The position numbers and the translations under genes were made by a program. Of a stretch of DNA of 64,000 nt, positions 10,052-61,900 are shown one piece after another; position 1 is the first letter of the stretch; each line of letters begins with the position of its first letter. The DNA is taken from contig NC_089278.1 in assembly GCF_963678975.1 (NCBI RefSeq), positions 12,365,479 through 12,429,478 of the forward strand. Direction: 5' to 3'. Below the pieces are notes generated by a model, which was not told the origin of the DNA, did not search any database, and worked only from the letters and a program-made list of their open reading frames with translations. The stretch comes from Dysidea avara. Lineage: Eukaryota; Porifera; Demospongiae; Dictyoceratida; Dysideidae.

Positions 10052-10620
10052 CAAGAGTTAATAATAAGAGAGGAGAGTGTCTAACGCTGTATAGGCCTGT
10101 AATAGATGATTGTGCAGAAGTTAAACGGCTTCCTTTCCGTGTAACGTATAGGGTTCTAGTATTTGTTTGTTTCCTTACCGCAATTAGTTTAGCCGCACCA
10201 TGATGAATCCTCGAGAATATTCGAAGGCTGAACTAAAGACTGAGCTGTATGCACAAGGAACAGTGCTCCTTCAATTCAAGAATGCTCAAAGGTAGGGTAA
10301 CATGGCGACGCAGTGAAAATTTGAAGCGATACTCTGCCTTTGGTTCAGTGTTTATTGGTTTCTCAGACGCTCTCCCCCAGAGTTATCTTCGAGGTTAACA
10401 GCCACACTTCTTTACGCAACAGAGCGATGCTCTTCGTGGTGAACTTGAACATCGAGTTGAACGCACGCCCTTGTGTCTGGGATAGCCTTTGTGGTTAAAT
10501 GCGAAAATATACTAGCCAGTCTGTATGTTACACGGAAAAGAAGCCGTTTAACTTCTGCGCAATCATCTATTACAGGACTATACGGCGTTAGACACTCTTC
10601 TCTCTTATTATTAACTCTTA
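10052..10620. mobile_element. CAAGAG palindromic element, long form (569 bp), 7-bp TSD
   Basis: The ends read CAAGAGTTAATAATAAGAGA on the left and TAAGAGTTAATAATAAGAGA when the right end is complemented. The inverted arms are about 120-135 bp, with a 280-bp middle. Flanks are ATAGCGT (10045-10051) and ATAGTGT (10621-10627), a 7-bp duplication with one mismatch. It encodes no protein. It is the likely parent of the 39-bp copy at 61615-61653, which shares its first 22 bases. Confidence 0.75.
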
Positions 10621-11766
10621 ATAGTGTGTTGTGCACTCCAAGAGGTTGGCACACCACAATTTTCCACACACATATGTGTAGTGCTGTGTTAGGATGATCC
10701 ACATACCAAGTTTGAGCAGAATCACTACTGTCATTGCAGAGATATACACAATTAAATTTTGTACAAATTTCTTCATTTATTGCTGTTTTGTACATTTTAC
10801 AAATGACATGTAAATGCATACTCCAATAACTTTGAAATTTAGCACAAATAAAAGGAGTCTAAAGGAGAATATAGTCAATTGGTAGAAATCAGATAAAGTT
10901 TATGATGCAACTTTTGATTTGATGAAAGTGTGATCTGTAGACAGAGGCTGCCCATGAATCGATCTCTTTTCTGATTATATAAATTAATAGGACTAATCAC
11001 TGAAAAGTTGCTGTATGGAGACAAGTAATCTGGTAAATATGAAACTTGGTACACAAGTTTCTGCAATATTGACCTACATGGAGGTGTGTATATAGGACAT
11101 ATTTACTAAGACCATCATCAGATGAGAATGTGTAAGTACAATAAAGAAAAAAGAAAAATAATGAACAAGTGAAGTCCTCGCACAACATGTGACCACTAAA
11201 AGACTTACAATTGTAGGGAAAATATGTGTGTGAGACACTGTATACAAAAACATGGCAGAAGGGTAAATAAAGAGTTGGAGCCCTTCCACTCTTGTTCATG
11301 TGGGTACAGTCTTTGATCGAGATACTCTAATAGAGCAGTCACATACTCAAATAACAAGATCCAACTGTACAATTAATAATCAATAATCACCTCCTGCCTG
11401 CATCAGCTTTCGCTCTACTAGGTGATGGGAAACAAGCAATATAGTAATGATGGCCTAATAAATACAATTTGCAGTTTGAATTCAATTCTGCATATAGATC
11501 ATGATAAGTGAATTACTTCCCTTATAGTTGATTAGAAATTTCAGATGGCTCTACAGGACTATTCACAATGACAAGAACAAAAGGCTCAGTACAGTAGCTA
11601 TGGAAATAACACCTCCCGTCCCCGGGAAGGTACAAACAATGGACTGGACTACTGGACTGGTGTTTTCCCTTTCATTTTTTACATTCCAGGGTACAGGGTT
11701 GTTTGTTGCTGTACTTGTAAAAAAGAAATGCCTACTTGGTACATTCTCCACCAAAAAGAATCCTAT
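10621..11766. other. Non-coding; carries one copy of the CTCTAATAGAGCAGTCA motif
   Basis: The motif with its GATCGAGATA lead is at 11315-11342. No coding potential is supported. Several open frames here are low-complexity or lack splice context. Confidence 0.5.
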
Positions 11767-12468
11767 TAGTATAGCGGCACAACCAAAAAATTGTGCACTT
11801 TTTCATAAAGCCATGAAACTTTCCTCATAAATAGTAGTCCTCAATACATGTATTTTTAGATACAGTGCCATCACTGATTTGACCTTGGGTGACTTTTACG
11901 GCCATTTTTGAACAGAAAAATGATCACTTTTGTCTTTAACTCCCTGAGGCAGTAATTAACATGTTAAAACATGGTACCAAACAAAAGATCTTGCTGATAG
12001 AAACAATTTGGTTTTTATTTGAAGTCAATAGGTGATTTCATTCTTAAGTTGTGAGAGTTTTCATTAGCTGCAAAATTTGATAAATTTATGCATAATTATC
12101 TGCCCACAGGTAATTCACACCTCGAGGGCAGGTAAATTTATCAACTTTTGCAGCTAGTAAAAATGACCATAACTTTGTAATGAAATCACCTAGCTATTGA
12201 CTTCAAATAAAAACCAAGTTGTTTCTATCAGCAAGATCTTTTGCTTGGTACCATGTTTTAACAAGTTAATTACTGCCTCAGGGAGTTAAAGACAAAAATG
12301 ATCAATTTTCTGTACAAAAATGGCCGTAAAAGTCACCAAAGGTCAACTCAGCGATGGCACTATATCTAAAATTACATGTCATGAAGAGTACTATTTATGT
12401 GTAAAGTTTCATGGTTTCATGAAAAAGTGCACAATATTGCCAATTTTGGGGGCTACGCCGCTATACTA
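11767..12468. mobile_element. 702-bp foldback element, TAGTATAGCGGC ends
   Basis: Arms of about 330 bp meet in a short centre near 12110, and TAGTATAGCGGC is complementary at the two ends. TAT flanks both sides (11764-11766 and 12469-12471), so the duplication is TA or TAT. Internal sequence such as GACCTTTGGTGACTTTTACG is shared with the arms of the foldback at 32282-34074, so both belong to one superfamily. Confidence 0.75.
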
Positions 12469-12487
12469 TATAGCAGACTGCTTGTAT

Positions 12488-12515
12488 CAAGAGTCCATAA
12501 TATTATGGACTCTTG
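12488..12515. mobile_element. 28-bp perfect palindrome with exact 7-bp TSD (CAAGAG family, minimal form)
   Basis: The left half is CAAGAGTCCATAAT and the right half is its exact complement, with no spacer. CTTGTAT lies directly on both sides (12481-12487 and 12516-12522). Confidence 0.75.
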
Positions 12516-12539
12516 CTTGTATACATAGCATGCCCTGTT

Positions 12540-12700
12540 TCAAACTTGAATGCAGGGCCGGGGGAAGCTCTTAGTGGTTGGTCAGGCAACAAACCAGGTA
12601 ATGATTCAGAGATTGTGATGAGTGTCTTCTAGGGGGTCTGGAGGTATTCCCCCCCTCCAGGAATATTTTGAATTTTTAGTGTTTGTAAACCACATTCTAA
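12540..12700. repeat. Fragment of a G/C-rich subterminal transposon end
   Basis: GGGGGTCTGGAGG followed by CCCCCCCTCCAGGAA and a T-rich tail resembles the subterminal hairpins of the CAGTGGC element at 4266. Only one end is recognisable. Confidence 0.35.
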
Positions 12701-13105
12701 AGCAAATTTAGCACTTTAAAAGAGTTGATTTTAAGATATTGCTTCATACATATACTGACTTTTGTAACTTCCCTAGTTGTCACACTACCTTTCTATATGT
12801 TGTAAAGTCTAATAATAATAATTTCGTTTATACAATTGCAACCTACCTCTCGGCAGAGCTGGAAGAATGTCCACCGCACTGGTCACCATGCGCTTCGATC
12901 ATTAGACGTACGAATATATTAGAGGATAAACAAGTGGTACATGAAGTTGGTTGCACATTCTTTTACTGTATTAAAGGTTGGAATGGTTAGTATCTGTCTA
13001 CAAACAGATATAAATTAGTGTATATCATATCTGATGACGTAACTACTATACAGAGCTACCTTATTATTGTGTATTAACTTAGCTAGGCATGTGCTCACTT
13101 GACTG

Positions 13106-13201
13106 GCTGGGCTGTGAAAATCTGCTACAGCAGTGGTTGTAGTGCTTCCACCGCTGGGCTGTGAAAATCTGCTACAGCAGTGGCTGTAGTGCTTCCACCA
13201 G
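13106..13201. repeat. Tandem duplication of a 47-bp unit
   Basis: GGGCTGTGAAAATCTGCTAC...GTGCTTCCACC is repeated twice, with one visible difference (GGTTGTAG versus GGCTGTAG). Confidence 0.8.
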
Positions 13202-13692
13202 CCCTGGAATGTGTTAATTTGATAGTAAAATTTAGCTCGATGCATGTTAAAGAAAGTGTAACAGCCAATGTGCCTAACAAAAATGTTGAAAAATACAATC
13301 AAAATCCAAAAAAGCACCAGTCCAGTAGACCAGTCCAGTGTTTGTACCTTCCCCTACACAATACCAAAACTATAGGTTGTATACAATCACTGGACTGAAT
13401 TTTTTTTTTAGCACATAGCTATATGGGCAACTGGTTGTAGTTATTGCTACATTCATTGAATGTAAAAATCCAGGTGAATCTGTCTACTTGGTACTGCCCA
13501 TTCATCTTAGGATTGAGTGAAATTTGCATAATAACTCCCTCTCTTGGCATAGTCTCTATTGTATGATTACCATTCAATATAGTTAACTGTCTTACTATTC
13601 CATAGCTGCAACTGGGCAATGTTGACAAGTCTAGCATGATCACACCTTTTCTTTATGTGCGGGGAGTGGTCTAACTACATGAGACTTACAGC

Positions 13693-13733
13693 CAAGGGTT
13701 TATAATATAGTAATGGTATATTATGAACTCTTG
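13693..13733. mobile_element. 41-bp CAAGAG-family palindrome, 7-bp TSD with one mismatch
   Basis: The ends are CAAGGGTTTATAATATA and the imperfect complement TATATTATGAACTCTTG. Flanks are TTACAGC and TTACAAC. Confidence 0.6.
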
Positions 13734-14763
13734 TTACAACCAGTTGCCTTAATATTTGGTAACAAGTTAATGTTGTGCTACTTCTAAAAACCAGGAGCCC
13801 ATGCAATTAATACTATCCCATTCTAACTAAATAGGTAATTAATCAGCCATGTATATATATTCATGCTATAGTTATTAGTAATTTAGCAAGATAATTAGAA
13901 TTTGTAAATACTGTAATTTAGCATATTTCGTAATTCTTTCATTATTTTGTAATTCGGTAATTACATGCTATGCACTGCTAAGAAAGCATAACTATAACAA
14001 ACCACTTTAAACTGCAAATTACACACAAAAAAGTATCTTCTCAACTGTTTTATAGTGTGTCTATCATATTTTCTTGTGCGAATTGTATAGAGAAAGCCTC
14101 GAGGCTGCCTTTCATTTTCGCAAAGGCCTCTGGCCTCCAATGTTGTTCTAAAGTTGTTAAACGTCTATAAAGCCGAAAGGGAACACCGTTCAAGGAGTAT
14201 ATGAAGAGTAGCCATATCCGTATTTCAGACTGCCGAGAAGAAACCAAAGTTTATGTGTGTAGAAGTTAAATACACACTTAATTTAGCTTTCAATTCTTAC
14301 ATACTGGCTGCTTTTTACCATTTTTGCTCACGTAGGTGCATACGGGCAAACAAACATAGGTACAGTAGGCATGCACGTTTTTACGAAAACAATTTCTGTA
14401 AACAAGGCGCGTGTCCACAGCCGACTGTGGGCACGTGCCTGGTTTAAATCTCTGTTCCGTTCAGCTATTCAATGCATTCGAGGTGTGCGTTCATCCATTG
14501 GTGCTTACACTAGGGCTCTATCACCAATGGATTTAGTGCAAGTGGAGTCCCGCATGTCAGAATAACATGCTGGCTGCGTTACTCTGCTTTTCTATTGTCT
14601 TTTACAGTTGTCCAGCACGTTCCTTTCTTTGTGCTGGGGGTGGTTGGCAAGGGAAGTCCATCAAGCCTGGGTGAATAATAAAAAAAAAGGTTTAAAAAGG
14701 GGTGTAGTCCAGTCCAGTGAAACTACATACACAAACTTCATGCACCGCTTTCAGTGTTTTAAA
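13734..14763. other. Non-coding or unidentified
   Basis: Two short open frames (14371-14565 plus, 14050-14247 minus) show no domain I recognise and have no convincing splice partners. No repeat structure was seen. Confidence 0.4.
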
Positions 14764-14767
14764 TTAA

Positions 14768-15374
14768 CCCTTAAACCCGCATAATCCAGAAAACTGGATT
14801 TAAACTTAATAAATATGCATGCTTTACACAAAGCGCTGTAACTTTTGAAGCGTCCATCCTATGGCTATGCAATTTACGTCATTCTACTTGTGATGTAGCA
14901 AGGATTAAAATGATACCTAGGGTTTTACCCTAATGCTAAATGGTGAGGCCAAAACTAGCCGTGAAAATAACTTTTCGGTAAGGAAACACGCAAACCCATT
15001 ACATACCTTTATAAAATGGTCGATAACTCGATGGTAGTTGATCCTATTACCTTGCAACAACTTCCATTCAATTCGTCGTGAAATTTTGCATCAGGCCATA
15101 TATGACTCACATGAGTAAACCCACAATCAAAATTAAACACATGGCAAGAATTTAGAAACACGGAGACGCGACTCATCACTGTTCACCGCTTCATAACAAG
15201 TAAGCCACTGTAGTTACAGTGTTCATTTAACCTTCTCCAAGTAGCCCAGTAAACACACTTTTAATCTATGTGAATTTGTAGGCTGTAAGAGTTAAGTTAC
15301 CTGACCTAGTGTCACCATGCATGCCCATATTGTGTAAACACACATTTCCGAAGAGTTCTCTGCGGGTTTAAGGG
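14768..15374. mobile_element. piggyBac-like MITE, TTAA target duplication
   Basis: It starts CCCTTAAACCCGC and ends with the complement GCGGGTTTAAGGG. TTAA flanks at 14764-14767 and 15375-15378. CCC ends plus TTAA duplication are typical of piggyBac. There is no transposase, and the 607-bp interior has no long frame. Confidence 0.75.
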
Positions 15375-15700
15375 TTAACTAATAAATTGTAATGGGCTGA
15401 GATGCCTAGGCAATGAGTATTGCTAGGCTAGGCCGCAGGCCTTTGTGCATGCCTATACCTTCAGTGTCGTATCTGGACCTTCCCTATTGGTAGGGCACAG
15501 CTAGGGCACTGTATATGCAGGGGCATGGGCCCCCCCCAGAAAATTTTTTAATTTTAACAGCTGCAAAATGGCATCTGAGGCCATTTCAACAACAAAAAAC
15601 ATTTATAGCTATTATTAACCTGTTCAGATTGTACAGTAGTTAACACTAGCTAACAACATTAGAACAAGACAACACTAAACTAGCTAGTCTACACCTATAC

Positions 15701-16348
15701 TAGAGCTGCACCGATTCTAGTATCGTTATTGGGCCAATATTGCTGTTTTCATGAAGTATCGGAATCGGCCATTATATTGTTGCAAATACCCATTCTTATA
15801 ACGTGCGAGGAGAATAAAATAACGTTCGTTTAGCTACTTGCTTATTTTACTAGCACAGTGGACACCTAAAAGCATCGTGGCACTGAAGTATAACACTAAT
15901 AGCTAACTACCAGCAAAATTACTGATCTAAGCTGAAACTCATACGTGTGAAAATGCTTTACTGAGAAAAAGATCGATATTCTCTAATAGAACAGTCAATA
16001 ACTCTAATAGAGCAATCAGGTAGAAGTGACTTTCAGTATTAGAATCTTTTGTTTCTGTAAGCACATTATGATATTATCTACACTTCTCCAGAAGTATACT
16101 GGAATATCCACTAGTTTGCATTTCAATGACTTCTTTCTTTGTGGATCTTGATTAGCTACTTCATTATAAACATGAACTATACTGAAAACATGTACAAGAA
16201 TACCATGAAATGCACTATATAATAAATACATGCACTATGAAGTAGCTACTTTGAGGTACTTGGTATCGGTACTTGTACTTGCAGATACTTCCCAGCTTAG
16301 TACTTGGTATTTGAAGTATCGGTAAAATGTGGAATCGGTGCAGCCCTA
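15701..16348. mobile_element. hAT MITE with exact 8-bp TSD
   Basis: The ends are TAGAGCTGCACCG and the complement of TAGGGCTGCACCG, the GGGCTGCACGATT-type terminus known from animal hAT elements. ACCTATAC flanks exactly on both sides (15693-15700 and 16349-16356). The interior carries two copies of the CTCTAATAGARCARTCA motif (15971-16020). Confidence 0.85.
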
Positions 16349-16439
16349 ACCTATACATGATGAAACGCTACAAATCTTATAATTAGGATCTATAGATATG
16401 ATGATTATAAACTAACTACAAGAACACTAGGAAGGCACA

Positions 16440-17287
16440 AGGGGGTAGGACAAGCCCACGTGAATTCGTAATAGCATTACGTAAGACCCTTAGCGCTACT
16501 AAAATATATTTAAAAGAAACGGATTCTTCTACCTCTCTATAGGGATATATCCAACACGGACGATTGTTTGTGGTTGTGTGATAAATGTGGAGACCGTTAG
16601 TGGCGAATTGGTGATCACCACGTGTCGTCATTTTGGAATGCTGATTTCTTCATAACGGTTTTGTATTTCTTCACAAAAATCACACCTTTGTAAAGTACAT
16701 ACATGGTAGAACTCCATTATGCATAAACAAACTCCAATCAATTCCTGTCACCACTTTAATCTTAACACTAACTCTACAAGATCTCATCCACTGACTTTGC
16801 AGACTCGATCTTCTTCCATCAATGCATTTAGATATTCCTTCTACGTGAACACACCATTTGTTTGGAACTCAATCCCATATGAAATTTTGTCCTTACCATC
16901 ACGCTTATTTAGATCACGGCTCCGATGTTACTTGTTTAACTGATGTCTCTCACTTAGTATTACTTTTTGTATAGTTGTTTTTGTTTGCTCATTTGTTGTT
17001 TTTGTTTGCTTGTAGATAGTCAATTTTTTTTTTAAAGTCAATGTTTCTGTATTGCTTTTTGTACTGTGTATGTGTTTTGGGGACCACCTTGTACAGGCTA
17101 TGAGCCTTTTGTGTACCCTTTCTTTAGATAAAATTGATAATAATAACTCAAATATCTATCGAACCTTGTCAAACCTCTCGATCGATATTTTATACAGTAA
17201 CCATTTGCTCACATGAAATATTATCAAGCATCACTTAAATGCATTGCATAATGTACATCAGTTCACGTGGGCTTGTCCTACCCCCCT
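16440..17287. mobile_element. Inverted-repeat element with GGGGGTAGGACAAGC ends, interrupted by a LINE relic
   Basis: The left end GGGGGTAGGACAAGCCCACG is complementary to the right end (TTCACGTGGGCTTGTCCTAC). The middle holds a LINE 3' fragment. Confidence 0.6.
16719..17150 (+). mobile_element. LINE 3' fragment (reverse-transcriptase C-terminus plus 3' UTR)
   Basis: The translation contains RSSSINAFRYSFYVNTPFVW followed by NSIPYEILSLP. This is the usual extreme C-terminus of CR1/L2/jockey-type ORF2 proteins (R..F+......WNSLP....). It is followed by a 3' UTR with GGGGACCACCTTGTACAGGC and an AATAATAA tail near 17140. The copy is truncated at the 5' end and inactive. Confidence 0.6.
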
Positions 17288-17310
17288 GAGGAAGGCATAA
17301 TTAATATCAC

Positions 17311-17770
17311 CAAGAGTTCATAATATATATACTAAGGAGAGTATCCTACTCTCATATACCCCTGTAGAAGGGCGTATCGTGAAGTTATGACGTAACACTT
17401 CTGAGTTCGCCCGTTTTTCTTTGTATAATTAATGATGTCATTAGTTGAACATGGTATCGATTGAACGCGTGCCTACCAATGTCGCTAGCAACCAAATTAA
17501 CTCCAGCTCTAAGCGTTTCTCACCCAACTACAATCATTCCTTCATGGGTTAAGACCGCTTCGTAGGCATTTCTTACTAGACCATTCGCGAATACAGCTAT
17601 CCTGAGCGTCGCAAGTGTGAAATGGTGCTAACGATTCTTGTACTTTTACGGCTTCCCATACGTCACAAACCACAACATCTTGTCATTACATCATAACTTC
17701 ACGATATGCCCTTCTACAGGGGCATATGAGAGTAAGATACTCTCCAGTATATATATATTATGAGCTCTTG
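17311..17770. mobile_element. CAAGAG palindromic element, long form (460 bp), 7-bp TSD
   Basis: The left end is CAAGAGTTCATAATATATAT; the complement of the right end begins CAAGAGCTCATAATATATAT. The arms are about 90 bp. ATATCAC flanks exactly (17304-17310 and 17771-17777). Its first 27 bases equal those of the 46-bp copy at 53490. Confidence 0.8.
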
Positions 17771-18216
17771 ATATCACCAACAACAGGATAAGTAGTAATT
17801 TGATCACGTGGTCAATTGGTGGGCGTTAATTAGAATCGTCGTAATTATTGGCTTCGTGACAGCTCAACACTAATAGTTTGGTGAGTAATTTAGTGCAGAA
17901 TAAGTTCACTTGTTAGATAATGCAATGACCTGGCCATGAAAAGCTGGTGATTGTGGGTTTTGAAGTCTTCAGTTTGGTAGGGCACTAGCCAAATTTAGCA
18001 GGGCCTAGCATAGGCCCTACTGTAGATACGCCACTGCATATCTTGATTTCTTCCAAAAAAATAAGCCGGCTTTATATTATTTTCGCTACAGGTCCGTTTA
18101 TCATCATTTTTACGGTGCACCAACATCACTTACGTTGAGAAGTGGTTCTGAAGTCTTGCAGAGGCTTTGATCCAGTAGTGCTTAGGTTTAGTTCTGCCAT
18201 TTTCGTGTGTACATTA

Positions 18217-18766
18217 CTAGTCTCGCGTGGCCAGACCCTTTCCGCGCAGCCGCTTATCGATTGGAAATTATAAGCGCCGCGCTACAAGGGTCTGGAATAG
18301 TTCATGAACATGAAATTTTTCGGCACGTTATTGGTGACAATTGATTGATTGGGTAACACCTAAGATACAAAGGTACAAAATGCAACGTGTGTTCCCTTGA
18401 ATCTTTAGTCTGTTTTGATCGAAAATCCGCTTAAAACCTTTCGCCTACTTTCCTTGTAACTCGAGATGAACTGAGCTTGTTTGTCTTTATTCAGCCATAC
18501 TTGTTGAAGATTCAGTAGTGGGTAGATGGAAAAATCTACACGGGTCGATGCTCGTCATCCCCAGAGGCCTTCTTGAGCTCATTCTTCAGTAATCAGATCA
18601 CTTTGGCGATTAAGGGATCGCGTGAGCCAATTTACACTCCCCAACCACTGGGGATTGTAGATTTTTTTAAATACATGAACTATTCCAGACCCTTGTAGCG
18701 CGGCGCTTATAATTTCCAATCGATAAGCGGCTGCGCGGAAAGGGTGGTCTGGCCACGCGAGACTAG
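18217..18766. mobile_element. MITE with about 90-bp CpG-rich terminal inverted repeats
   Basis: The ends CTAGTCTCGCGTGGCCAGAC are complementary, and the arms run through GCTTATCGATTGGAAATTAT to about 18309 and 18672. The duplication is CTA or TA. A diverged relative lies at 35217-35345. The arms are strikingly richer in CpG than the surroundings. Confidence 0.8.
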
Positions 18767-19125
18767 GGCGTCACTGTGACCGTATTTAAAATCAACCACG
18801 CCGTCACTGGTAACGTGAGCGAATCACGTGCACCCACATTTCTAAGAGGCAGGCGCCGCCTAAATAATCTTATCATCATTGTGAAATTTAATCATAGATA
18901 ATTTATACTTTAATTAAAACTACTCTCCTAGGAAATTCCGTGCACCCAAACTATTACACATACAGTGCAGTACATTGACATACCAAGTGGAGTAACAAGT
19001 TAAAATAATAAATAAGTGCTAACTACACTGCAAGATTAAAAAAAGCCACTGAACTCTGGTGGAATATCACACCTCATAATAAATAACTATGTATAGTAGC
19101 TGTCTTATACTAATATGTTCCTTCT

Positions 19126-30177
<11,052 letters not shown>

Positions 30178-31347: not shown

Positions 31348-31381
31348 CAAGAGCATATAATGGGGAAGGGATATGTTCTTG
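31348..31381. mobile_element. 34-bp CAAGAG-family palindrome with exact 7-bp TSD
   Basis: It begins CAAGAGCATAT and ends with ATATGTTCTTG, nearly complementary. ATATTAC flanks exactly on both sides (31341-31347 and 31382-31388). Confidence 0.65.
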
Positions 31382-40416: not shown

Positions 40417-43144
40417 GCTGAAGAAGCTCAGATACCTGCCATTGTCCGTAGCCCAACCTCCCGCTATGAGGTCCACCTAACCAGAATGAAAAGGCTTGTA
40501 AATCTAGGTTACTCAGTGTTCCTTGGCTAAGTGGGCGTGATGTGTCTCATGGGGGATGGGGACTGGGATTAAGAGTTGATCCCAGGACAGGTAGTGAAAG
40601 GTGTGTGTATCATATGTAGTACACTGTAGTGTGTGCGTGTGTGTGGTGTGAGGGGAAGCAAATGCCTAATTTATCTTGGATGTAGGGTTCCACGGCCTCT
40701 ATTTACATGAAACTATGACAGTTCTTATGCATGTTACCATAGTTCTGTGCAGCCTCAAGTGCCTAAGTGTTACACAGGTGTCCCAGTGCTGTTTCTGCTC
40801 ACAATAGGGTTTCTTTGGACTTGAGACTCATTAATGTGATACTGAGATGGGTGCATAGTTAGTGATTCTGCACTGTACTACACAGACAAAGGTCCATCGT
40901 ATCCACGTCCAAGTATGCTGTAAGCTTATCAAGTCTCAAGTCATATGTATTGTATTTCACAGAAGAATTATTGGACTAATGTTTCATGATATTATTGTGA
41001 TGATGTCTACGCTGATAGTTAATGGCTAAACACTACTCAGTCATTCAGTATTATTGGGTGATCTCTTGTTACATGACCCATCTAATTGTGTTGTTGTTTG
41101 GTTGTGTTGCTAGAGATGGTTGTCAAGCACTGAAGGAGTATGTTGCTATGACAAAGAAGGAGCTGCCAGAGCCGGACTCTTCCCAGTGGATGTCAAGAAT
41201 GATAAGTATGTCTTGTATCTGAGTAGTGAATGTGTTGGTGGTATGGTGAATTCTTGAATTGTTGCTCTCTATATATCCCTAGAGAGCAACAATTCGAGAA
41301 TTCACCATACCACCAACACATTCACTACTCAGATACAAGACATACTTACCATTCTTGACATTATATACATAGTTCAATATCTTAAAGTCAACCGTTATTT
41401 ACTAAGAATAATGGTACTGCAGTGTTCATAATGAAAAAGTTCCACTGCAGTATCCACAAATACCCATGTGATACTGAGTACCTTGTGGTGTTCACTTGGT
41501 GGCTGAGAACTTATTAACATGCTCAAGTCCATTTTTGGAAACTTTTCATCCCGGCTACTACCCTCTATGTTTCACTCCCCTTCGTGATTTACTCACTTAT
41601 ATCGCACAGATTTAAGTTTAATAGAAGGCAAGCTTCAATCTTGCCATTTATGGCACTGCACAGATTTAATTGTTAGAAGCTATGATCATACTAGACATTA
41701 TATTGTTCATTCAAAACCCAAGGGTTAATTTTGGGCACAATACCCTCAACAACTAAAACAGTAGTTTGTGTGGATGAGACCAGTTGCAGCTGCAAAACAG
41801 TCTTAAGACTTGCGTACAAGTCGTTTTATCAATATTGAGGGTTAACTTAAGGTGAGCCTTATTGCTACAGAAAGGGTCATCTGCAATAAATAAGTATTGT
41901 AACAGACATTATCAACAATCGACAAGTGGGTGTGTCTCCATGTAAGTCTACAGACAGCTACAGAGACCATAAGTGGGCTGTCTTGATGCCAGACTAGTTA
42001 CCTACCATACGCATGCAAGGAAAATTTTGACAAATCGATTTAATTCGTCAAATTTAAATTCATCAAATGCCCTTAAGCATCTTTAAAGATGCAAGTTTTA
42101 TCTACATCAACATTTATTTCGTCATATCTGCTGAAGCGTAAATTCATAAAATTTTACTTGCGTCTAAATTTCCTTGCATACAGTATAAGCAGCAGCAGCA
42201 GCAGCACTCGATCCCTATAAGTGGGAATGATGCCATGCATGCCCACAGACAGCAGCATTCAATCCCAATAAAATAATGGACATGGATCCATAATCGTGAC
42301 AAATACCAAAATACTCTCAAATGATGGGCATGGTTCCATGTAAGTTTCTTCAGTATGTACATGTATTTCCATCAATAAAATTGAACTTGTAAATTTATGC
42401 ACATGTGATCCCATCTGGGTCAGACCCAGATATTTAATAAAGTGGACAAGACCCACTTGATCTGGACAAAATGCAACCCAAGTGACCAGGATAATCTGGA
42501 TGACCCGACCCACTTACAACACTGGCACATACGTATGATAAGGTTGCTAACTATAGGTAATGGTTACTAGGTACACTACTAACTTTAAGTTTCTGATAAT
42601 AGTGCATAGGTACACATACCTCGTTCTGATTAGAATATTATGATTGTGGTGACATAATGTTTCATAAAAAATCACATGCCTTTTACGTTTTTATACAGAC
42701 CCATGTTGTGTTACTAAGGATTCTGACAATCGCCTCCTGGCTCTGGTAGCTAGGATCAAGGTACACTTCTGCAAAGTTTAGTATGCTGCTACATACAATG
42801 TATTTCTCTACACAGAAGAGGATGGTTCATGTTGCTGTAACTACTACAAAGAATAACTGCAAGGACATTATTATAGAATCCTTTACATGTATACTGTACA
42901 TAAATTTTATGACATCACGATGTATGTATTTATTGAGTTTTTTTAAGTGCATGATACTAATGTCGTTACGCATGTATGTAGTATGTGTGGGAAATGGCAT
43001 AAGCCATTTCATGTCCATATCTATTTTACCCATGAGATTATGCACTACACAACCTGATCATGACACAACTACTTTATACAGTTTGCAATGGCCAAACACA
43101 AACAGCAAGTGTTCTTGTATTTTGTTAACAATATAGCACTCTGA
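40417..43144 (+). CDS. Possible multi-exon gene of unknown function (four candidate exons)
   Basis: Candidate exons are 40417-40493, 41114-41205, 42699-42760 and 43082-43144. Phases agree through all joins (2, 1, 0) and a stop ends the last. Exon 2 reads ALKEYVAMTKKELPEPDSSQ after CQ, and exon 3 reads PCCVTKDSDNRLLALVARIK. Both look like real protein rather than random sequence, and the acceptors TTGCTAG and TTTTTATACAG are good. Weak points: the first donor would be a GC rather than GT, no start codon or upstream exon was found, and I recognise no family. The exon 2 donor lies inside an 81-bp inverted repeat. It may be the 3' end of a gene, a decayed gene or chance. Confidence 0.35.
41190..41361. 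repeat. Inverted duplication, two 81-bp arms with a 10-bp loop
   Basis: Arms 41190-41270 and 41281-41361 differ at two positions by eye. The left arm includes the last 16 bases of the candidate exon 41114-41205 and its splice donor (AAGTATG). Confidence 0.85.
42775..42905 (+). repeat. Repeat R6, copy a (inverted relative of 44715-44870)
   Basis: CAGAAGAGGATGGTTCATGT and TTTACATGTATACTGTACAT occur here and, complemented, at 44715-44870. The pair flanks about 1.8 kb. Confidence 0.65.
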
Positions 43145-48957: not shown

Positions 48958-48997
48958 GAGAGCTCATGTCTTCAGCATCTGAAAAATTGGTACCGAC

Positions 48998-49784: not shown

Positions 49785-49925
<141 letters not shown>

Positions 49926-50324: not shown

Positions 50325-50620
50325 ATTAAGAAACCAGACACAAGTTGTCTTGGAATCAAGTCACCAGCTGGTCTGGGGTTTTCTGTATTGTCATGTTGAG
50401 ATACTGACCCCCTGTTATGTTTACATGTTTTTAGTAGCCTTCTTGTTGGTCCCAAGTAGTAATATAATATGCATCAACTGTCTGATCATCTTTTCCCCAT
50501 AAATATATTGTTGAAGATTTAAAATTTATAATTTAGTCAAGAGGCTAAGGAACCACATCGCAGCCCGGGATCTGGAATTCCTGCTGCATTCAGAGCTGAT
50601 GGAGTGATGCAACAGCCTAC
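50325..50620. repeat. Repeat R7, copy b
   Basis: GGAATCAAGTCACCAGCTGG, TTTTTAGTAGCCTTCTTGTT and TTTAGTCAAGAGGCTAAGGA match the copy around 37945-38310. Confidence 0.65.
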
Positions 50621-52119: not shown

Positions 52120-52990
52120 TGCCTGGCATAGCCATACCACATTATCTCCAAATCCTATCAGGTACTTGGACTTCTAAGAAGATCTTTCTCCCTACAAAAT
52201 TATGTCCAAGCCAAATCTCGACTATACACCTCTCTTGTTAGATCCCAGTTTTTCTACTGCTCGGTCATCTGGAAACCCCACCTAATTAAGCACATTCAGC
52301 AACTTGAACGTGTTCAGAGGCGTGCAACTAAATACATTCTAAATGATTACTCTACTGACTACAAGTCTCGTCTTATTAATCTCCATATGCTACCCCTGAT
52401 GTACATTCTTGATGTAAATGATGTGATGTTCTTTCTTAAAAATCTCCACAACCCCCACAATGGATTTGACATCAATAATTTCATTAAATTTCACACACGT
52501 CTAGCTTCTGGAAACAAGCTACTCCAAACAAGATCACCTGACAATTCCACTAGTAACTTTTATTTTAACCGGCTTCCTTGCATCTGGAATGCCCTTCCCG
52601 TTATCAACTACCAGGACAACCCACTCAAGATAAAGGCCAAACTTTTAGATTATCTGTGGAATCATTTCACTGCCAATTTCACCTCCAACAACACCTGCTC
52701 TTTTTTCATTTCTATGTCCACGCTCAAAGTGTTCAAAGATCCCTCACCAACCTAACTTCAACTCCCTTTAACTGTTAATTCCCCCCCCCCCCTTTTAAGT
52801 AATCTAGTAAGTAAACTTTGTAGCTAATCCCTACTACAATTTAGCTTCTGGCCACTGACACAGGATGTCAGTGGACCATCAGTGTGCTGCCATATGTCCC
52901 GATTTTACCATACCAACATCTGCAACTTGTATGTATGTATATGTACACTGTAAAGTTCATTATTATTATTATTATTATATTAAACTTGTG
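52120..52990 (+). mobile_element. LINE 3' fragment (CR1/L2-like reverse transcriptase C-terminus, 3' UTR, ATT tail)
   Basis: The frame open from at least 52138 to the stop at 52753 reads SKSYQVLGLLRRSF, SLVRSQFFYCSVIWKPH, then LERVQRRATKYILNDYSTDY and NFYFNRLPCIWNALPV. These are the thumb/C-terminal signatures of non-LTR retrotransposon ORF2 (VLGL..R.F; YCS.IW; LE.VQRRATK.I; WN.LP). The upstream fingers/palm and endonuclease are missing, as in usual 5' truncation. The 3' UTR ends in (ATT)n at 52963-52980, a tail type known for CR1/L2 elements. Not functional. Confidence 0.85.
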
Positions 52991-53117
52991 TTCCCCCATT
53001 CCTGTCCCATTCTAGTCACAAAAAGCGGTAGTTATATATAATTATGCCAAAACAGAAGTGCGTCAGTGTAGACAACAAATTGTACCTAAAAACTCTCCAG
53101 ATTCCTGGCCTCGACCT

Positions 53118-53312
53118 ACTCGCTAGTCTCAGTCTATCCGCCGGCCTCCGGTACGCATTCCCTGTCCTTCTATATATTTATAAGAACGTTCCTATTTCTA
53201 AAGGATTTATGAATCCAGGTGGACTAAATTACCTAAAACATGTTAACAGTAACTCAGGTAGAATCTGGTGACGACGGTTAACAACTACTGGGTAAGTACC
53301 CGGATGACAATG
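53118..53312 (+). repeat. Repeat R4, copy b
   Basis: Inverted relative of 35348-35530 (AACATGTTAACAGTAACTCA, AACAACTACTGGGTAAGTAC). Confidence 0.65.
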
Positions 53313-53489
53313 CGAGAACCGGGTGAGAAAAGCGTCTCCTGTGGCAACATTAAAGGGACAGTACCACAAGCCATAGTCTACAAGTGCTAATTTCACATCC
53401 CGTTAAATATGTTCATGACGTGATAATTTGTTGCGTGTTATTACATGGTGCACCTTATTACATCACGTCACGAAATGGCGAACTAGTAG

Positions 53490-53535
53490 CAAGAGTTCAT
53501 AATATATATACTAAGGTATATATTATGAACTCTTG
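53490..53535. mobile_element. 46-bp CAAGAG-family palindrome, 7-bp TSD with one mismatch
   Basis: Arms of 19 bases (CAAGAGTTCATAATATATA and its exact complement) enclose an 8-base loop. Flanks are CTAGTAG (53483-53489) and CTTGTAG (53536-53542). The first 27 bases equal those of the 460-bp element at 17311. Confidence 0.75.
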
Positions 53536-54005
53536 CTTGTAGTGATCTTCTAATGGGGGATAATCGTAAACAAAGCTATGGTAATGGTATAAACTTGTAC
53601 TGTTTTACTCGTAAGGTATATCCCTGCAGTTCACATCGTTGTTTGGTAGTGAATAAAGACTGCTCCATAAAGCCAACAGCCACTTCAGCACCCCGGGGAA
53701 AAAAAATGCCACTTCAGCCAGGCTCTAGCAGCTGGTACAAGCTTGTACTGTTATCACGATTGTTGCACTGACAAGAACTTGTAGTAAACAAGCCTGTTGA
53801 GTTAATTAACAGTCTACAATGGGCTGGAGATGCTGTTCTTGCGGCTACATTTCTAAGCGCTTCGTGCCGTTGCATATTAGAGCATTTTCAACACGTGATC
53901 TTCATTACGTAATTTAAAGTTTCGCCTACGCGTCCACCATATTGGTGAACCACTGTGCTGGTGAACTGTGTAATAGTTCGCTCAGTGTATCGTGTTTACA
54001 GTATT

Positions 54006-55540
54006 CTACTGGTGTTGAAGAGAACTCGTACTAGAAGTGGAAGAAAAATACACTCTGGCAATTCTTTACAAGGTTGATTAGTAACTGCTCGAAGGGGCGG
54101 ACTAAAACAAGGACTCAAAATAGATCCTCGAATAGAGCCGTTCAACAGGGAATTTCTCTTAAAGGCTATCCCGGACAAGTTTCGTTACTCTGTTTGCTGT
54201 TGTTACTAAAGGTATTGGCTACTGGCCGGAGTACCGCCCGTGATTTAACCGGCTCAGCAGATCTACTGTAGCTGAGTTCGAGCTACAGTGTGAATGGTTC
54301 AGGCTTAGCCTGATTTTTAGTGAGATATGAGCTCTGTATGTCTTTGTAAATGTTATTACTAATTGTTTCATGATAGAACTATGATGTTCTATGATTCTTT
54401 GGTCCATTGTATATGTAGCCAGCTGCCACCTAGAAATACTCAGTGCACATATTGCAATTGAGATTGCTGAAAGGAAGACTCTAGGAGGTGCCTTTCACAG
54501 ACCTTGCAATGAATGCTATACTTTTGGGTATTACTGCTGAGGTGATGAGACTGAATATGTTAAAGTTGTCTTTATGTTTGATGACTTATTACAGTGGTCC
54601 TTCCTTTATACGGCCATATCTGAACTGTAGAAGTGATAGTTTTGTTACAGTAAGTGTGCATTCTATTAGACTAATTGAACAGTTCTGTACAGAAATGAAT
54701 GAGCTTCAATTTCATTTCAATTATCTGAACATACTCTGGGTTTGGATAGTAGATGGGTCACTGTACTAATCTTCTCTTCCCCTCAGATGTATACAAATGT
54801 AAAAACTTACAAAACCAAATATGTAAAATAATCATTCACTAAATGCAAGAACTTCGTGAAAATTATAATTTTGGGTGATCCACTTCACAACTATGAAGGG
54901 GTGAGTCTCAGTGGTGGTTAATGCAATATACCTTTCTGACATGATTGTCATAATTGTGGCTTATCCAGTGTATGTAGATGTGAGAAGTTAAACTACATTT
55001 ATGTAGTGCTGATGGGACACATGGACAGACATGACAACATTTAATCAGAAGTGATTGATTCCCCTGATGTGTGTACTGTTTACGTCATAAATTGCAGATA
55101 CTGGTTTCCTGGTAAACAGTGCATGGAACCCAATAATATGGCTGTTTTTCTATAACAAAACAACAACAAATCTTACAAACAACACAAACACGTGGACTGA
55201 TCCATCTGTTGTTAACAATAAAAATGCATAATAGATTTTCTGGACATCTACGATCTAGTCTACCACTCTAATTTTGTAGTTGATCATGACACTTGAGTTT
55301 GTATGCAGGTGTGCAGAAGATCTTCACACAACTCCGTTTGTTTGTGTGCAGCACTCGCCATGGAGAAACAACTACTATAATTATCTGTAAAATTAATTGT
55401 CCAATAAGACAAAGTGTCCAGTCATACCATCACGGCATAGCTATCAAGAACAGAACACATGTGGCACTCAATAAAATCCTGAGATTTGCATTTGCTGGGC
55501 ATACTTCAGCAGTCATAATTACTTTTGCCTTACTTTCATG
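54006..55540. other. Interior of the TTAA element, coding status unknown
   Basis: Frames at 54488-54769 (93 codons) and 55293-55544 (83 codons) have no domain I recognise. The interior may once have held a transposase. Confidence 0.35.
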
Positions 55541-55860
55541 TTAGTTCTGACAGCCCAAGCCTATCCAACACCTAGTAAGCCATACTAAGTGCTGTACCTG
55601 GGTGTTGTTATTGCTGGACAGCAACCTAAAATGAGGACAGCATACAGGTATCAGCATGATCACTGCAAAGGCAGATTCAGTAAGGGGTCTTTTACAATGT
55701 AACATAGCAGTTATAATACATGTGTTCATCCCACTCCAGGCTGGTCTCCATACCATGAACAAACTATTTACAAACTAGATATGGTGCAAAGAAGGCCAAC
55801 AAGGTTGTTGCGCTGAACAGCTGCAATATATAAACAAACCTAGCTAGCTATAGTGCCCTC
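55540..55860 (+). mobile_element. Probable LINE scrap
   Basis: PGWSPYHEQTIYKLDMVQRR (about 55735-55795) resembles the WSPY.....I..LE.VQRR signature of LINE reverse transcriptases. It is interrupted by stops on both sides. Confidence 0.4.
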
Positions 55861-56021
55861 CTTATGCGGAAATGTTGAACAGCCTTACCCATCCCAGTCC
55901 TTTGACATTGAACCACTACACACTGGAATGATCACTCTTGTCAGGGATGCCAAGAAACGGCTGTTTAACAAGAGAAATTCCCTCGAGATTCTTTATAAAG
56001 AACGGCTTCTTTCAGCTCAAT

Positions 56022-56510
56022 CCAACGTTGAAACCGGGTCACTACTGCTGACCCGGATGACCCACTGACCCGGATAGCAATCCGGGTCAGACCCGGATTA
56101 ATTAAAGCCGAGACGTGTTTCGGCTAGTCTCGGGTGAGTGAACGAGTCTACATTTTGAGCGTTCGATTCGTGTTGAGTAAATATTGCAACTTCAGCCTAG
56201 CTGTAGGTTGAAAAAGGTCTTCACCTACTGACAATAGCTACCCCTCACCATAGATACCCTCAGTTTCGTGCTACATACTGCACTTACTAACAAATAGGCG
56301 TGGCTGAGCATATGTTGGTAATGCGATAAGTGGGCGTGGCTCACAAAAGAGCTACGCGATAGCGTTTATAAGTTCCACGTCGTCAAACGAACAATTTCGT
56401 TTCTCACGTGATCCAATCGGGGTAAGACCTGGATAAATTGTAAACCGGGTGAGACCAGGATGACCCGGAGAAAATGTGACCCGGATGACCCGACCCGGTT
56501 TCAACGCTGG
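56022..56510. mobile_element. MITE with CCAACGTTGAAACCGGGTC ends
   Basis: The right end, complemented, reads CCAGCGTTGAAACCGGGTC. Direct CTCAAT flanks both ends (56016-56021 and 56511-56516), and CTCAATCC if the end is set two bases inward. The interior is full of GACCCGGATGACCC words. Related decayed sequence occurs at 7640-7680 and 42410-42530. Confidence 0.7.
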
Positions 56511-56553
56511 CTCAATCCCGGCGCCTTTCATGTTTATTAATCACCCTCCTAGC

Positions 56554-56837
56554 TAGTCTGGCGCCGCCCGCCCCTTCGCAAAAAGTAAGGGTCTGGTGAA
56601 ATACAAATACCTAATCATTTCAAAAGGAATTCAATTAGACAGTGCACATAATGTTTGTTACCTCAGATGATTGCACTTCAATTCGAACAAAAGCATTGTG
56701 TTGCCAAGGCGATTTCTGTGTGAACGTCATTGGCATGCACTAATTGGCTAGCGCCGAATCTGGGCGCTAGAAATGATTTAGTATCTGTATTTCACCAGAC
56801 CCTTACTTTATGCGAAGGGGCGGGCGGCGCCAGACTA
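56554..56837. mobile_element. 284-bp MITE with exact 9-bp TSD (Mutator-like)
   Basis: The ends TAGTCTGGCGCCGCCCGCCC are complementary, and the arms run about 55 bp (through GGGTCTGGTGAAATAC). CCTCCTAGC flanks exactly on both sides (56545-56553 and 56838-56846). A 9-bp duplication is typical of Mutator-like elements. A decayed end of the same type is at about 58518-58560. Confidence 0.85.
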
Positions 56838-57083
56838 CCTCCTAGCCTCTAAAGCACTGCCAAAGATGCAATTCTCTTTCACAGCAACCATAACTTCTCT
56901 CCACTGCCAGAAGAATGCTGTAAACACACTATACTGAGCGAACTATTATACGGTTCACCAGTGCTTGGTTCACCAGTATGGCGGACGCGTAGGCGATATT
57001 TGAAGTTACGTAATATAGATCACGTGTTGAAAATGCTCTCACAGCAAAATGATTCCAAGTCATTGTAGCAGGCTGTATGGAAG

Positions 57084-57114
57084 CAAGAGTAGATAACTCC
57101 ATTATCTACTCTTG
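57084..57114. mobile_element. 31-bp CAAGAG-family palindrome with exact 7-bp TSD
   Basis: Arms CAAGAGTAGATAA and its exact complement around a 5-base loop. ATGGAAG flanks exactly (57077-57083 and 57115-57121). Confidence 0.75.
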
Positions 57115-57167
57115 ATGGAAGTGAGAATTGTTGTTCATTTCCAAAACCACAATTGCTCAGTAATAGA

Positions 57168-58360
57168 TGAATTTCATAAGTAATTTTAAACCGTTGCCCC
57201 TAGCAACCTGAATTTTACATTATTTTGTAGGTGTGAATGTCAAAAGTAACACCTCCAATTTTTAAAAAGACAGCATATAGCTATAGGTGATGAGATACAA
57301 CATTTTAAAGTTTGCAGTTTTCCAATACGTTTTCTATGGGAGGGGGTGACAGTTGCCCCTTCTGGGCAATCACATGGATAACGTATGGGAAAACCACAAA
57401 TTTCAGAATGTCATATCTCATGATCTATATACTCTATCATTTTAAAATTTGGAGAGGTTAATTGTGAGATTCACATCTACAAATGTGACCGGATTTCATA
57501 TAACAAGGCTTCCACACACACAAAATCAAACTTACGATTTTACCAGAAATGGATTGCTGGTCTAATACAATATCATATTTCACACTGTACTTCCTTCAGC
57601 ACTGGCAGGTCTGGTTTCTGTAGCAGCTTTCTTCCGACCCTGTCAAAGCCACGAGTGGGAGATTGGTGCCATTAAATGGCCATGGCTTTGTGATAATGGT
57701 GTGTAGTGAGCTGGGACTTCACAGAGAGCTCGCCAATAGTGCTCCCAGTCAATTTGGAGTAATTTGAGGGCCATGGATGGAGAGCCCAAACTTGGCCTCT
57801 GGATTCCAATCGTCTTCTTACTTCATTTTATACCCCTATATTAAGACCACTGTCCACCCCCACCCTTCCACCTTATTACTACCACCTGTGATATTATTAC
57901 CCGCTCAAAAAAAGCTGCCCAAAACAGGACAAATTTTGGGTATCAGAAATGTATACACCCACTCAGTGATAGCTAGTGAACAGATGAACAATTGGTGCAA
58001 ATTTTGTTTGCACAGCTGTAGGCACTGGGAAGTTATTACACAATGATTCCTTAAAATCGCCATATCTCCTAACAAAGCTTTGTGCGTCGAAGCCTTGTTT
58101 TGTCAAATTCAGTCACAAATGATGTTAAACTGAGAAATGACATTAATTGAATTTGTTGGTTTCCCACACATTATTTATGTGATTGCCCAGAAGAGGCAAC
58201 TGTTACCCCCTCTCATAGACAATTTATAGAAAAATGACAAACTTTAAAATGTTATATCTCATGACCTATATATGAAATTTAGAGGTGTTACTATAGACAT
58301 TTACCCCTACAAATATTGTAAAAATCAGATTGCTAGGGTTATTATGAAATTCATTCATTA
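57168..58360. repeat. 1.2-kb foldback inside the right arm of the TTAA element
   Basis: The left arm (57168-57420) and right arm (58130-58360) are complementary. Shared words are CTTCTGGGCAATCACAT, TAACACCTC and AACATTTTAAAGTTTG. Confidence 0.65.
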
Positions 58361-58835
58361 CGTAAACAACGTCAAATGCTTGTCGCACTTGTATGGTTTC
58401 AGCACTTGTATGGCTTGGCGTACTGTCCCTTTAAACAAAACTGCATGAGAGTGTCCAAAAAAGGAGTCATGCAATGCATGCATGCACTCAGCTGAGCAGC
58501 TTACACTGGTACGCATGGCGCCTCACCCACCCCTTTGCATAAAGTATAACCAGAAATTTTTACCAACCACCTTGTCATCACACAATAAATAATTTTATGT
58601 ATGCATGTATATGTTAAATGTTTTTTTTTGTTTGTAATTACCTGGGTCAATTGTCAGCTGTGCTGTCTCGACCCAGTATATAATCATAATCATAATCATA
58701 GATAACCTTACCTTTTATTTTTATAATACACTGAGTCTTCGGTACAGACTACAGATTCATGCATGCATTCTTGCATGACTAAATAAACTTCTCGAACTCG
58801 AGTCAAACGGATATCCTCGTTAATTTCTGTGAACC

Positions 58836-58845
58836 TATATAAAGG
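58836..58845 (+). promoter_or_regulatory. Possible TATA box of the NLR gene
   Basis: TATATAAAGG lies about 120 bp before the start codon at 58965, which would put transcription start near 58870. Position and match are good, but there is no other evidence. Confidence 0.35.
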
Positions 58846-58964
58846 CTCGGTGGTCAGCTGTCTAGCTAAGTTAAATCACTTTTCAGTGAGTGATGCATGC
58901 CAACTGGTGCACCATGCACTAGCTATATAACAGCTACGTATATAGATGGAAAGCTGGTTTGTAG

Positions 58965-61900
58965 ATGTCACTGTCAAGACCAAGTATAGAGGAAGCAATC
59001 TTAACGAAGCATGTGGCAGCGTTTGAAGCACGCTCGGATTGTGGCATTGTTCTAGGCAAACTTCTGGCGTCCGACGTGCTATCAGAATTCGAATATCAGC
59101 GAATATGGGCTGAGAGAACTCAAATTGAGCGAAACAGGTTAGTGCTGAGTATAAAAGGTCAGTGTAGGTCTGCCGGATGGGGAAGGTGGGGGGGGGGGGG
59201 GGGGAGAGAGCTTGTATTTAAAATAGCACACGTACAATTAAAACTTATCAAAAATGTCAGATTCGGCTCAGAATGTTGAGCCCAGGTTAAAAGTTGCAAA
59301 CTGGACGCAACCTTAACTGCTCCAGGCTCAGATTTAGTTGTTTAATTTTTATAAATCTCTACTGGCAGGCTATAGGGCACATAATTATACAACCAAGTGT
59401 ATACAACTAACAAAAATTCCTGACACAATTATATTGATGGATATTCAATATCTGAGAGCCCAAGTTTACGCAGTTTCTTACTAAGTAGCATGTTTAACTG
59501 TCACCGCATCAGAAAGTGTAATTTTGTGGCCAGTTTAGCTACTTTCAAAATGGCATGCACAATTTAATCTCAGGACTGAAGCCTGATTTAAAAAAAAAAT
59601 CCATAATCATGAAAATACCATATAATATTATTCGATTCAAATAGCCTGGAAGACATCCACCCATGCAGACAGATAGTGCTTTGTCACATGATATCAATGG
59701 TCAATACAAACGCAATGCACTATAGTATGTTCACGTTGAGCTGAATCCTGAAAAACAGCTAAAAATTAAAAGTGGATTTTTTCTCAACAGAGTCAACATT
59801 TCAGCTAACCAGATGATTATTGGTAACAGCAAAGGTGTCAGCAACAGACACGTACGGTTTAGCTCCATTACAAGTTCAGGAAAGGGCTGTAATGGACACT
59901 GCACTTATATGGCTTCCCCAAAGGAAATGTATTGTGAAAATTTTGATTGGCCATAAATATTATGTTAAACATTTGAACAAAAAGATTTTGAAATATTTTT
60001 AGCGGATCAAGCAGTACTACAAATGAGCCAAATTTCAAGATCGTGTGTAATTGCATTCGTGAGTTATTAAATATTTTTGAGAATTCAGCTCAACGTGAAC
60101 GTACTATACTAATAGGATAATTGTGTACATGCATGAGGTATACGTGGTTGTACATGTCCTAGTTATTACATTGTTATGTCATCACTACTATACACTTATG
60201 CATCATGCAAGCTCTACCAACCATAGGATCTGACTTCATGCACCGGCCAATCGATCACAAAAATCAAAATCAATACTCATGCCACAGCAATAAATGACTA
60301 ATCAGTTTGACAACTAGCTTTTAGTTGTGAACTTGGACAACTGTACATAGACTTTCAATGTGTACCTGGTCCTGATTCCCCCCCAAGGAAAAATCCTAGA
60401 ATAAATACTGCTAAAGATTACAATTAGGTTTTGAGTCTGGCAGTATTATAGCTATATATTATACTTTGCCATGCGGCCCTCATACAGCGGTTCCCCATGC
60501 CCTTGTACTGTCCCATAAGCATATAGTGTGTGCATCATATAAAACAATAGTCATGGAGGGTTTGTGGGTTAATTTGCACTATACTATATAGCCTGTGTAA
60601 AAAAAAAGATACAAGAGTCAAACAAGCCAGCATGTCTAGTTAAACACACAGAGATCTCTATTTGGACTCGATGGATATGGTAGGGGAAAAAAAGTAGCTA
60701 GTTTCCATTAATCAGGGACAGATAGCTTGCTGTATAAATGTTTCTTTGACTCCAAATATAGAGATCTCTGTGTGATTAACATGCTGGCTTGTTTAACTAG
60801 TCTTGTTTTTTTTCAGCGATTACCATAATTTAAAAAAAAAAATTTACATTAATTTAGTTTGTTTACCTTTTTATAAATCCATTTATGGATTGCTAAAATG
60901 ATAAGAGGTGCTTGATATTACACTGTACTATTAAGTCAGTCATCATACACAATAGCTTAGCTGTAAGTAGAGTTAGCTAATAACAGGGGCGGCTCCAGGG
61001 GGGTTTCTGAGGTTTCCGGAAACCGGTCACATTTAGATCGAGATACTCTAATAGAGCAGTCAGTCACTCTAATAGCAGTCACAGTATTCAGAGAAGTAGT
61101 GTAGCAAACTATGAAGTTGTGAATAAAGATTTTTATGTGCTTTATCAGTGATACAAATATTATTTAGTGGAGAATAGCCATTCTTAGGTGTTGACTTTTT
61201 TTTTTTTTTTTTTTTTGGTCTTCACCCAAAATCTAGCTGTGCTTTTGATCAGAAACCAGTCACCAAAAATCCTGGACCCGCCTATGAATAATATTATCAG
61301 AGTTAACAAACACTAGTGTATTATTTCCTTACAATAATAATAATAATAAATAATTGAACATACTTTACACTATATATATCCAACTAAAGGCAGTGTATAG
61401 CATGTTACAGTCAGCAATAGTATGGCTTCTGATATACATGCACACTTGTGCAACTATTTAAGTGATAACACATTGCATGGTTTCTCTAAAAAGATTAATA
61501 ATTGTGACTGCATGTATAAAGAAGCAAATTTGCTTCAAAGTGGATGTTAACATTACAATATGCATTTAAATAGATCATGGACATGAAGAAAGACTTAACA
61601 TGAAAGCATGAAAGCAAGAGTTAATAATAAGAGAGGGGTATTATTAACTCTTGATGAAAGGCTATGTAGTTTTTATCCCCAAAAAGTACTCGAGGGTAAT
61701 ATTATAACTTGTCTATACAATAATGCAAGCTAGTGATGTTTGAATATGCAATATACTTTTGCATATTTGAGACACCACATTTGGGTACATATATAACCAC
61801 ACACCCCAGCATATATTTCAGTATACTGCTGTTTTTCTTTTTTGCTAGTGTGTTTGTAGCTATGTTGTGCTGGAGTTAATATGTTTTGTGTTTGTTTATA

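Follow-up and report, generated by a model that had tools for sequence, protein, structure and literature searches.

Eight palindromic loci in the window

The window analysed here, a stretch of 64,000 nucleotides from the sponge Dysidea avara (contig NC_089278.1, positions 12,365,479 to 12,429,478), contains eight palindromic loci with CAAGAG...CTCTTG tips, belonging to ends of type CAAGAGTNNATAAT and bounded by direct repeats of 7 bp. Two are long and six are only 28-46 bp; the long and short copies share both their ends and their 7-bp target site duplications (TSDs), and several sites have empty counterparts elsewhere. We posit that the short copies are probably scars left at the donor sites of a cut-and-paste transposon, most likely of the P superfamily, after excision with a long stagger.

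All eight loci lie where a first-pass annotation of the sequence had placed them, with the ends, sizes and flanks that it described; none is assigned a strand. The long, non-autonomous elements occupy 10052..10620 (569 bp; terminal inverted repeats of 99 bp, 93%; TSD ATAGCGT/ATAGTGT) and 17311..17770 (460 bp; terminal inverted repeats of 85 bp, 89%; TSD ATATCAC, exact). The short copies, read here as scars, lie at 12488..12515 (28 bp, a perfect palindrome; TSD CTTGTAT, exact), 13693..13733 (41 bp; TTACAGC/TTACAAC), 31348..31381 (34 bp, asymmetric, with by eye about 22 nt of one end and 11-12 of the other; ATATTAC, exact), 53490..53535 (46 bp; CTAGTAG/CTTGTAG), 57084..57114 (31 bp; ATGGAAG, exact) and 61615..61653 (39 bp; ATGAAAG, exact). 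The flanks are exact at five loci (12488, 17311, 31348, 57084 and 61615) and carry one mismatch at three (10052, 13693 and 53490); three ends depart from the consensus by a single base, with CTCTTA at the end of 10052, CAAGGG at the start of 13693 and TTCTTG at the end of 31348.

Insertions with 7-bp duplications

That the short palindromes are real insertions with 7-bp duplications is confirmed by chance tests, flank comparisons and empty sites. When either 6-bp end, but not both, could carry one mismatch and the total length was held to 16-60 bp, the window gave 10 pairs, of which 4 had an exact 7-bp flank and 6 had at most one flank mismatch. The null set, 1544 sequences generated at random from the dinucleotide chain of the window, gave a mean of 6.2 pairs, no exact flanks in any of the 1544 and a mean of 0.010 pairs (maximum 1) with at most one mismatch. 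Across 550.8 Mb of genome in 108 contigs, CAAGAGN{4,34}CTCTTG has 3866 matches and the reversed pattern, used as a control, has 380; the N{35,65} spacer class (total length 47-77 bp) gives 1405 against 320, as pattern counts. The window, which was chosen for these loci, holds 4 exact pattern matches where the genome mean predicts 0.45 (Poisson P 0.001). The high copy number claimed by the first-pass annotation and its expectation of an excess over shuffled sequence are thus borne out. The strict palindrome had no match in viral contigs; in 257 billion bases of prokaryote sequence it had one, in a Tissierella contig (L058), which was put down to chance. Records close to the window's genome may have been left out of both searches.

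Flanks were inspected at each of the first 50 short-pattern matches listed (spacer 4-34; the 47-77 bp class is represented by counts only), which all lie on contig C1 at or below 8.4 Mb. The main set comprised 44 distinct pairs, including 4 from the window, with one nested pair counted and two duplicates merged. Among these listed matches the 7-bp flank is exact in 21, has one mismatch in 10 and has two or more in 13, and none of the 44 has an exact flank of 4, 5, 6, 8, 9 or 10 bp, in line with the earlier remark that the duplications do not have the size typical of hAT, Mutator or Harbinger. Nine further listed places gave three exact 7-bp flanks, two with one mismatch and four worse. In a 304-kb scan for any inverted pair of 18-60 bp tipped with CA..TG, exact 7-bp flanks were found at nine pairs, all of them CAAGAG; the counts at other flank lengths were 0 at 5 bp, 1 at 6 bp, 0 at 8 bp and 13 at 9 bp, the last all from one tandem array (L006). 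A search for direct repeats beside inverted tips of 8 bp of any sequence, whose rule was too strict and dropped true cases, returned 7 at 7 bp (5 of them CAAGAG), together with 11 at 5 bp, 35 at 6, 7 at 8, 1 at 9 and 2 at 10. At the 32 sites with at most one flank mismatch the duplications follow a motif VTANTAB: position 2 is T at 28 sites and position 6 is A at 27, with an A/T-rich middle.

Two elements of other sequence lie to the right of the window, in locus L057. At window coordinate 81998-82244, 18 kb beyond the edge, stands a 247-bp element with CAGGAGCTTATGAGCC ends and an exact 7-bp TSD, ATACTAT; its tips are CAGGAG, AAGG and then AG recur inside both ends, and it is apparently a sister family sharing the target motif. 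At 77186-77205, 13 kb beyond the edge, stands a 20-bp perfect palindrome, CAAGAGTAAATTTACTCTTG, with the exact TSD ATAATAT; a 20-mer differing from it by one change, with an exact 6-bp flank, occurs at L016.

Empty sites, which the first-pass annotation had proposed to seek, were approached through elements inserted within repeats: other copies of the repeat were compared for an insert-free site with one TSD. Three sites have such a counterpart, so that single-TSD empty sites do exist between repeat copies, as paralogous rather than allelic comparisons. At L005, array units about 4 kb away within the locus align with the flanks of the copy at 97% identity and have one uninterrupted GTATTAC; L039 and L044 align with L055:5746-5835 at 95.6 and 94.5% identity, with one ATTATAT; and the site of the 460-bp element at 17311 has a counterpart in L020 at 81% identity, with one ATATCAC. 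Weaker cases, at L007 and L057, contain extra gaps. Separately, one 28-bp scar recurs with similar flanks at L019, L042, L043 and, in reverse, L029, and a repeat family therefore seems to have spread carrying the scar.

Short copies as probable remnants of excision

The short copies are read as scars because in the two testable pairs the arms match long elements and break at the same inner position, and because the layout is that of a P junction. The copy at 53490 is identical to the left end of the 17311 element for 27 nt, and its remainder is the reverse complement of the first 19 nt of that end; the copy at 61615 follows the left end of the 10052 element for 22 nt, and its remainder is the reverse complement of the first 15 nt plus two extra bases. 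Both arms break at the same aligned place, directly before an inner AGAG. By eye, other long arms also end after GG, at 31348 (22 nt), 13693 (24 nt), L016, L031, L040 and L046, and at L017 (4965-5021) the first 16 nt of the scar are tandemly duplicated in the manner of a templated insertion. A full-arm match to the window's long copies is found for 53490 and 61615 alone among 41 short copies (duplicated places included), the next-best matches to the two long copies being 21 and 15 nt. That only two nearby copies match in this way suits local hopping, for which the excerpted text of PMC7776569 gives a range of about 50-150 kb in the case of the P element.

How such a copy could arise is suggested by the P element itself, whose transposase in Drosophila makes a staggered cut, at the tip on one strand and 17 bp further in on the other (PMC7776569, in excerpt). 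In Rad51-less flies the repaired donor site has a TSD at either edge; between the two TSDs lie remnants of both ends, each of up to 17 nt, joined through microhomology or inserted bases, and many junctions retain less of the ends or none (PMC2895639, likewise in excerpt). By analogy, the transposase acting here would cut one strand at the element tip and the other some 22-28 nt inside, directly before the inner AGAG. The departing element would leave behind both TSDs and, on each side, a single-stranded tail of its own end, and end joining, through microhomology or a few copied-in bases, would then seal the tails into a short palindrome. A single end would accordingly take the form CAAGAGTNNATAATN{0,20}GGAGAG, with the arms of short copies stopping at or outside the GG that precedes AGAG. 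If copies of up to about 56 bp are scars, they mark past donor sites and would be immobile unless the tips alone suffice for transposition. More tentatively, and at somewhat less than even odds, some thousands of P-type donor-site scars in this genome could record a stagger of about 22-28 nt, which would exceed the 17 nt of the Drosophila P element. Its position would be set by the inner AGAG and not by how far from the tip the cut lies, and expanded A/T runs within an end would then make the cut correspondingly deeper.

The first-pass annotation had entertained the idea that the short copies are the smallest of DNA transposons. On that view a transposase would recognise and insert two joined tips of 28-46 bp, which would make their own 7-bp TSDs. 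The intact duplications, the copies in their thousands and the empty sites, which show that something inserted there, would all suit such elements, as would the recurrence of some 28-bp sequences at different TSDs (L039, the window 12488 type). But the inner sequences of the 32 short copies compared are varied, where the mobilisation of short elements would amplify a few, and a recurring 28-mer is equally expected if joining reuses the same microhomology. In addition, 28 bp leave hardly any room for two transposase-bound ends. The binding sites of P transposase lie inside the terminal repeats, according to the excerpted PMC7776569. With arms that match long elements and share a break in the two testable pairs, and with listed lengths thinning above about 56 bp, this idea did not survive, and we regard it as very doubtful.

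Lengths bear on a second alternative, in which long, hairpin-prone copies suffered internal deletion through replication slippage or aborted gap repair, wherever the transposase may cut. Long palindromes of this kind are unstable, and the long copies do carry inverted repeats of 85-99 bp; deletion that keeps the ends has also been proposed for P-MITEs (PMC1562414, excerpt). Such a process predicts a broad range of intermediate lengths, which the data do not display. In the first 50 matches listed for each spacer class, all on contig C1, the binned counts exceed background by 1.40 per Mb per 10 bp at 16-26 bp, 2.04 at 27-36, 1.68 at 37-46, 1.12 at 47-56, 0.22 at 57-66 and 0.30 at 67-77, a five-fold fall from 47-56 to 57-66 bp among these matches. 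A scan of 134 contiguous kb for pairs up to 6 kb, with no selection for length, found seven CAAGAG copies of 20-46 bp and the two of 460 and 569 bp, and none between 47 and 459 bp; this tally includes 31348, which the scan filter dropped and which was added from the direct check of the window. The same scan gave a 4570-bp pair with 7-bp flanks, discarded because it only reaches from one scar to another (57084 to 61653), and, at other flank lengths, three long pairs at 5 bp and none at 6, 8 or 9. Under a crude model of uniform internal deletion, the occurrence of all seven copies at or below 46 bp has P < 1e-15. Because both comparable pairs break at the same inner position as well, deletion of this kind seems unlikely. 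The annotation's second suggestion, that the copies are products of a process that keeps ends and duplications, is therefore close to the scar reading, with excision favoured over internal deletion as the cause; its interpretation overall is partly supported.

Superfamily assignment and comparison with known systems

Membership of the P superfamily, with a Galileo-like 7-bp TSD, is likely. The TSDs of the sampled pairs, at 7 bp, fall within the 7-8 bp of the superfamily, and the CAAGAG...CTCTTG tips carry the CA...TG termini that define it, termini common to other superfamilies too. The P element begins with CATGATG (PMC2895639) and Pdre2 with CATACC (PMC10983969), as given in the available parts of those papers. 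Galileo uses the target GTATTAC/GTANTAC and has a 7-bp TSD in most copies (PMC4168063, in excerpt); the motif found here, VTANTAB, agrees with the palindromic target GTANTAC of the Galileo branch and is weaker at positions 1 and 7. A transposase of the P superfamily combines RNase H, a GTP-binding insertion and THAP domains, encoded between the ends of its element. Its domain PF21787 has at least 151 matches in the genome (447 candidates, 150 scored) and none in 14 control genomes; open P-type frames among these include groups with 464, 484 and 405 residues. One copy lies 14 kb upstream of the window in L056 (5811-6233, or 5811-6683 for the remnant), a PF21787 match that contains a stop, accompanied by a PF21788 piece that scores below the curated cut-off; two further L056 frames and the piece around the PF21787 match, when scanned, contained P-type pieces, and a 110-residue piece of this copy matched no PDB chain. 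No P-type domain was found in the window's seven open frames of at least 150 aa or in 10 scanned of 36 listed open frames.

Other superfamilies fit less well. TSDs are 8 bp in hAT and 9 bp in Mutator, the sizes also used in the first-pass annotation, and exact flanks of either length occur in 0 of the 44 listed pairs, so that both hAT and Mutator (MULE) were rejected. Dada, which would fit by TSD length alone, was rejected given the 85-99 bp inverted repeats here and the absence of any Rfam match in the window at gathering level. More generally, the same scar mechanism could be the work of a transposase from a different superfamily, described or not, that makes 7-bp TSDs and cuts with a long stagger, as might be argued from the lack of a transposase tied to the ends and from the 6-7 bp TSDs that Dada also makes (PMC3706591, excerpt). 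However, in that excerpt Dada-U6 and Dada-U1 have no terminal inverted repeats, which are long here, and small RNA genes are where those Dada elements lie whose ends are clear; the present genome, moreover, is rich in P-type domains, and the target motif is Galileo-like. We consider a different superfamily improbable.

Several observations weigh against excision by a P-type transposase as the source of the short copies. A good 7-bp flank is absent from 13 of the main 44 pairs and from 4 of the further 9, some of which are chance matches. The retained arms exceed the 17 nt of the Drosophila P element, which requires a deeper cut than that of the model, and a fixed cut site rests on two pairs, the other GG arms and their orientation having been chosen by eye. 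No site was seen both filled and as a scar in comparisons of repeat copies (as opposed to alleles or individuals). The lengths show no peak at 34 bp, and some copies measure merely 16-24 bp; the upper edge is soft, with 1405 matches against 320 at 47-77 bp and some excess above 56 bp, and 8 of the 12 listed matches at 67-77 bp are 70-71 bp long, perhaps a separate small family. No transposase gene is tied to CAAGAG ends, L056 being the only P-type copy examined for ends; near it there were no CAAGAG ends and one weak candidate pair with other ends.

If the scar reading is correct, an assembly alone displays both the cleavage of a transposase and the end-joining habits of its host: arm lengths would report the position of the cut, junctions the use of microhomology and of templated insertion, and the number of scars relative to elements would count departures that usually leave no record. 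It would also counsel caution, since "minimal transposons" of 28-50 bp may be scars.

The window contains further features. Near-perfect large palindromes lie at 3865-4168 (146-nt arms, 97% complementary, 12-nt spacer) and 41190-41361 (82-nt arms, 98%, 8-nt spacer), and 81-nt inverted arms (95%) 349 nt apart, perhaps a further non-autonomous element, at 18235-18745. A long open frame on the minus strand, 4463-6703, encodes DUF4371 and hAT dimerisation domains and is a hAT-type transposase; 22111-22620, also on the minus strand, encodes the first part of a cyclic nucleotide phosphodiesterase domain. A public metagenome protein is 97% identical over half of the latter frame, which suggests that the metagenome data include DNA of this host or of one close to it. 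In its gene content the DNA resembles that of an animal.

A limited literature search (open-licence papers, mostly titles and the starts of abstracts) found no natural, genome-wide set of P-superfamily scars; laboratory P junctions and a survey in rice exist. The systems below are compared from excerpts of the papers cited. The natural excision footprints of rice are likewise genome-wide traces of departed DNA transposons, mostly with filler or deletion and perfect in 8 of 94 (PMC4423477), but they come from a comparison of two genomes, and the excerpt does not describe retained joined tips as a class. P-MITEs of Anopheles gambiae are non-autonomous and have P ends, with an 8-bp TSD and, in the text available, no mention of a class of 28-56 bp (PMC1562414). 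Pdre2/THAP9 of zebrafish is a P-type element with a terminal CA; it differs in its 8-bp TSD, its 13-bp inverted repeats and the larger flanking deletions that accompany excision in the assay (PMC10983969). Galileo, a member of the P superfamily in Drosophila, resembles the elements described here in its 7-bp TSD, its palindromic target with a TANTA core and its long foldback-like inverted repeats, whereas a class of tip-to-tip scars is unmentioned for it in the excerpt (PMC4168063) and the link to a transposase is missing here. The closest parallel in layout is provided by the P{wa} excision junctions of the Drosophila melanogaster P element, which consist of TSD, end remnant, microhomology or insertion, remnant and TSD (PMC2895639), the remnants deriving from a 17-nt staggered cut (PMC7776569); there the TSD is 8 bp, the stagger 17 nt and the junctions come from the laboratory, whereas here the TSD is 7 bp, the arms reach 22-27 nt and the scars are natural.

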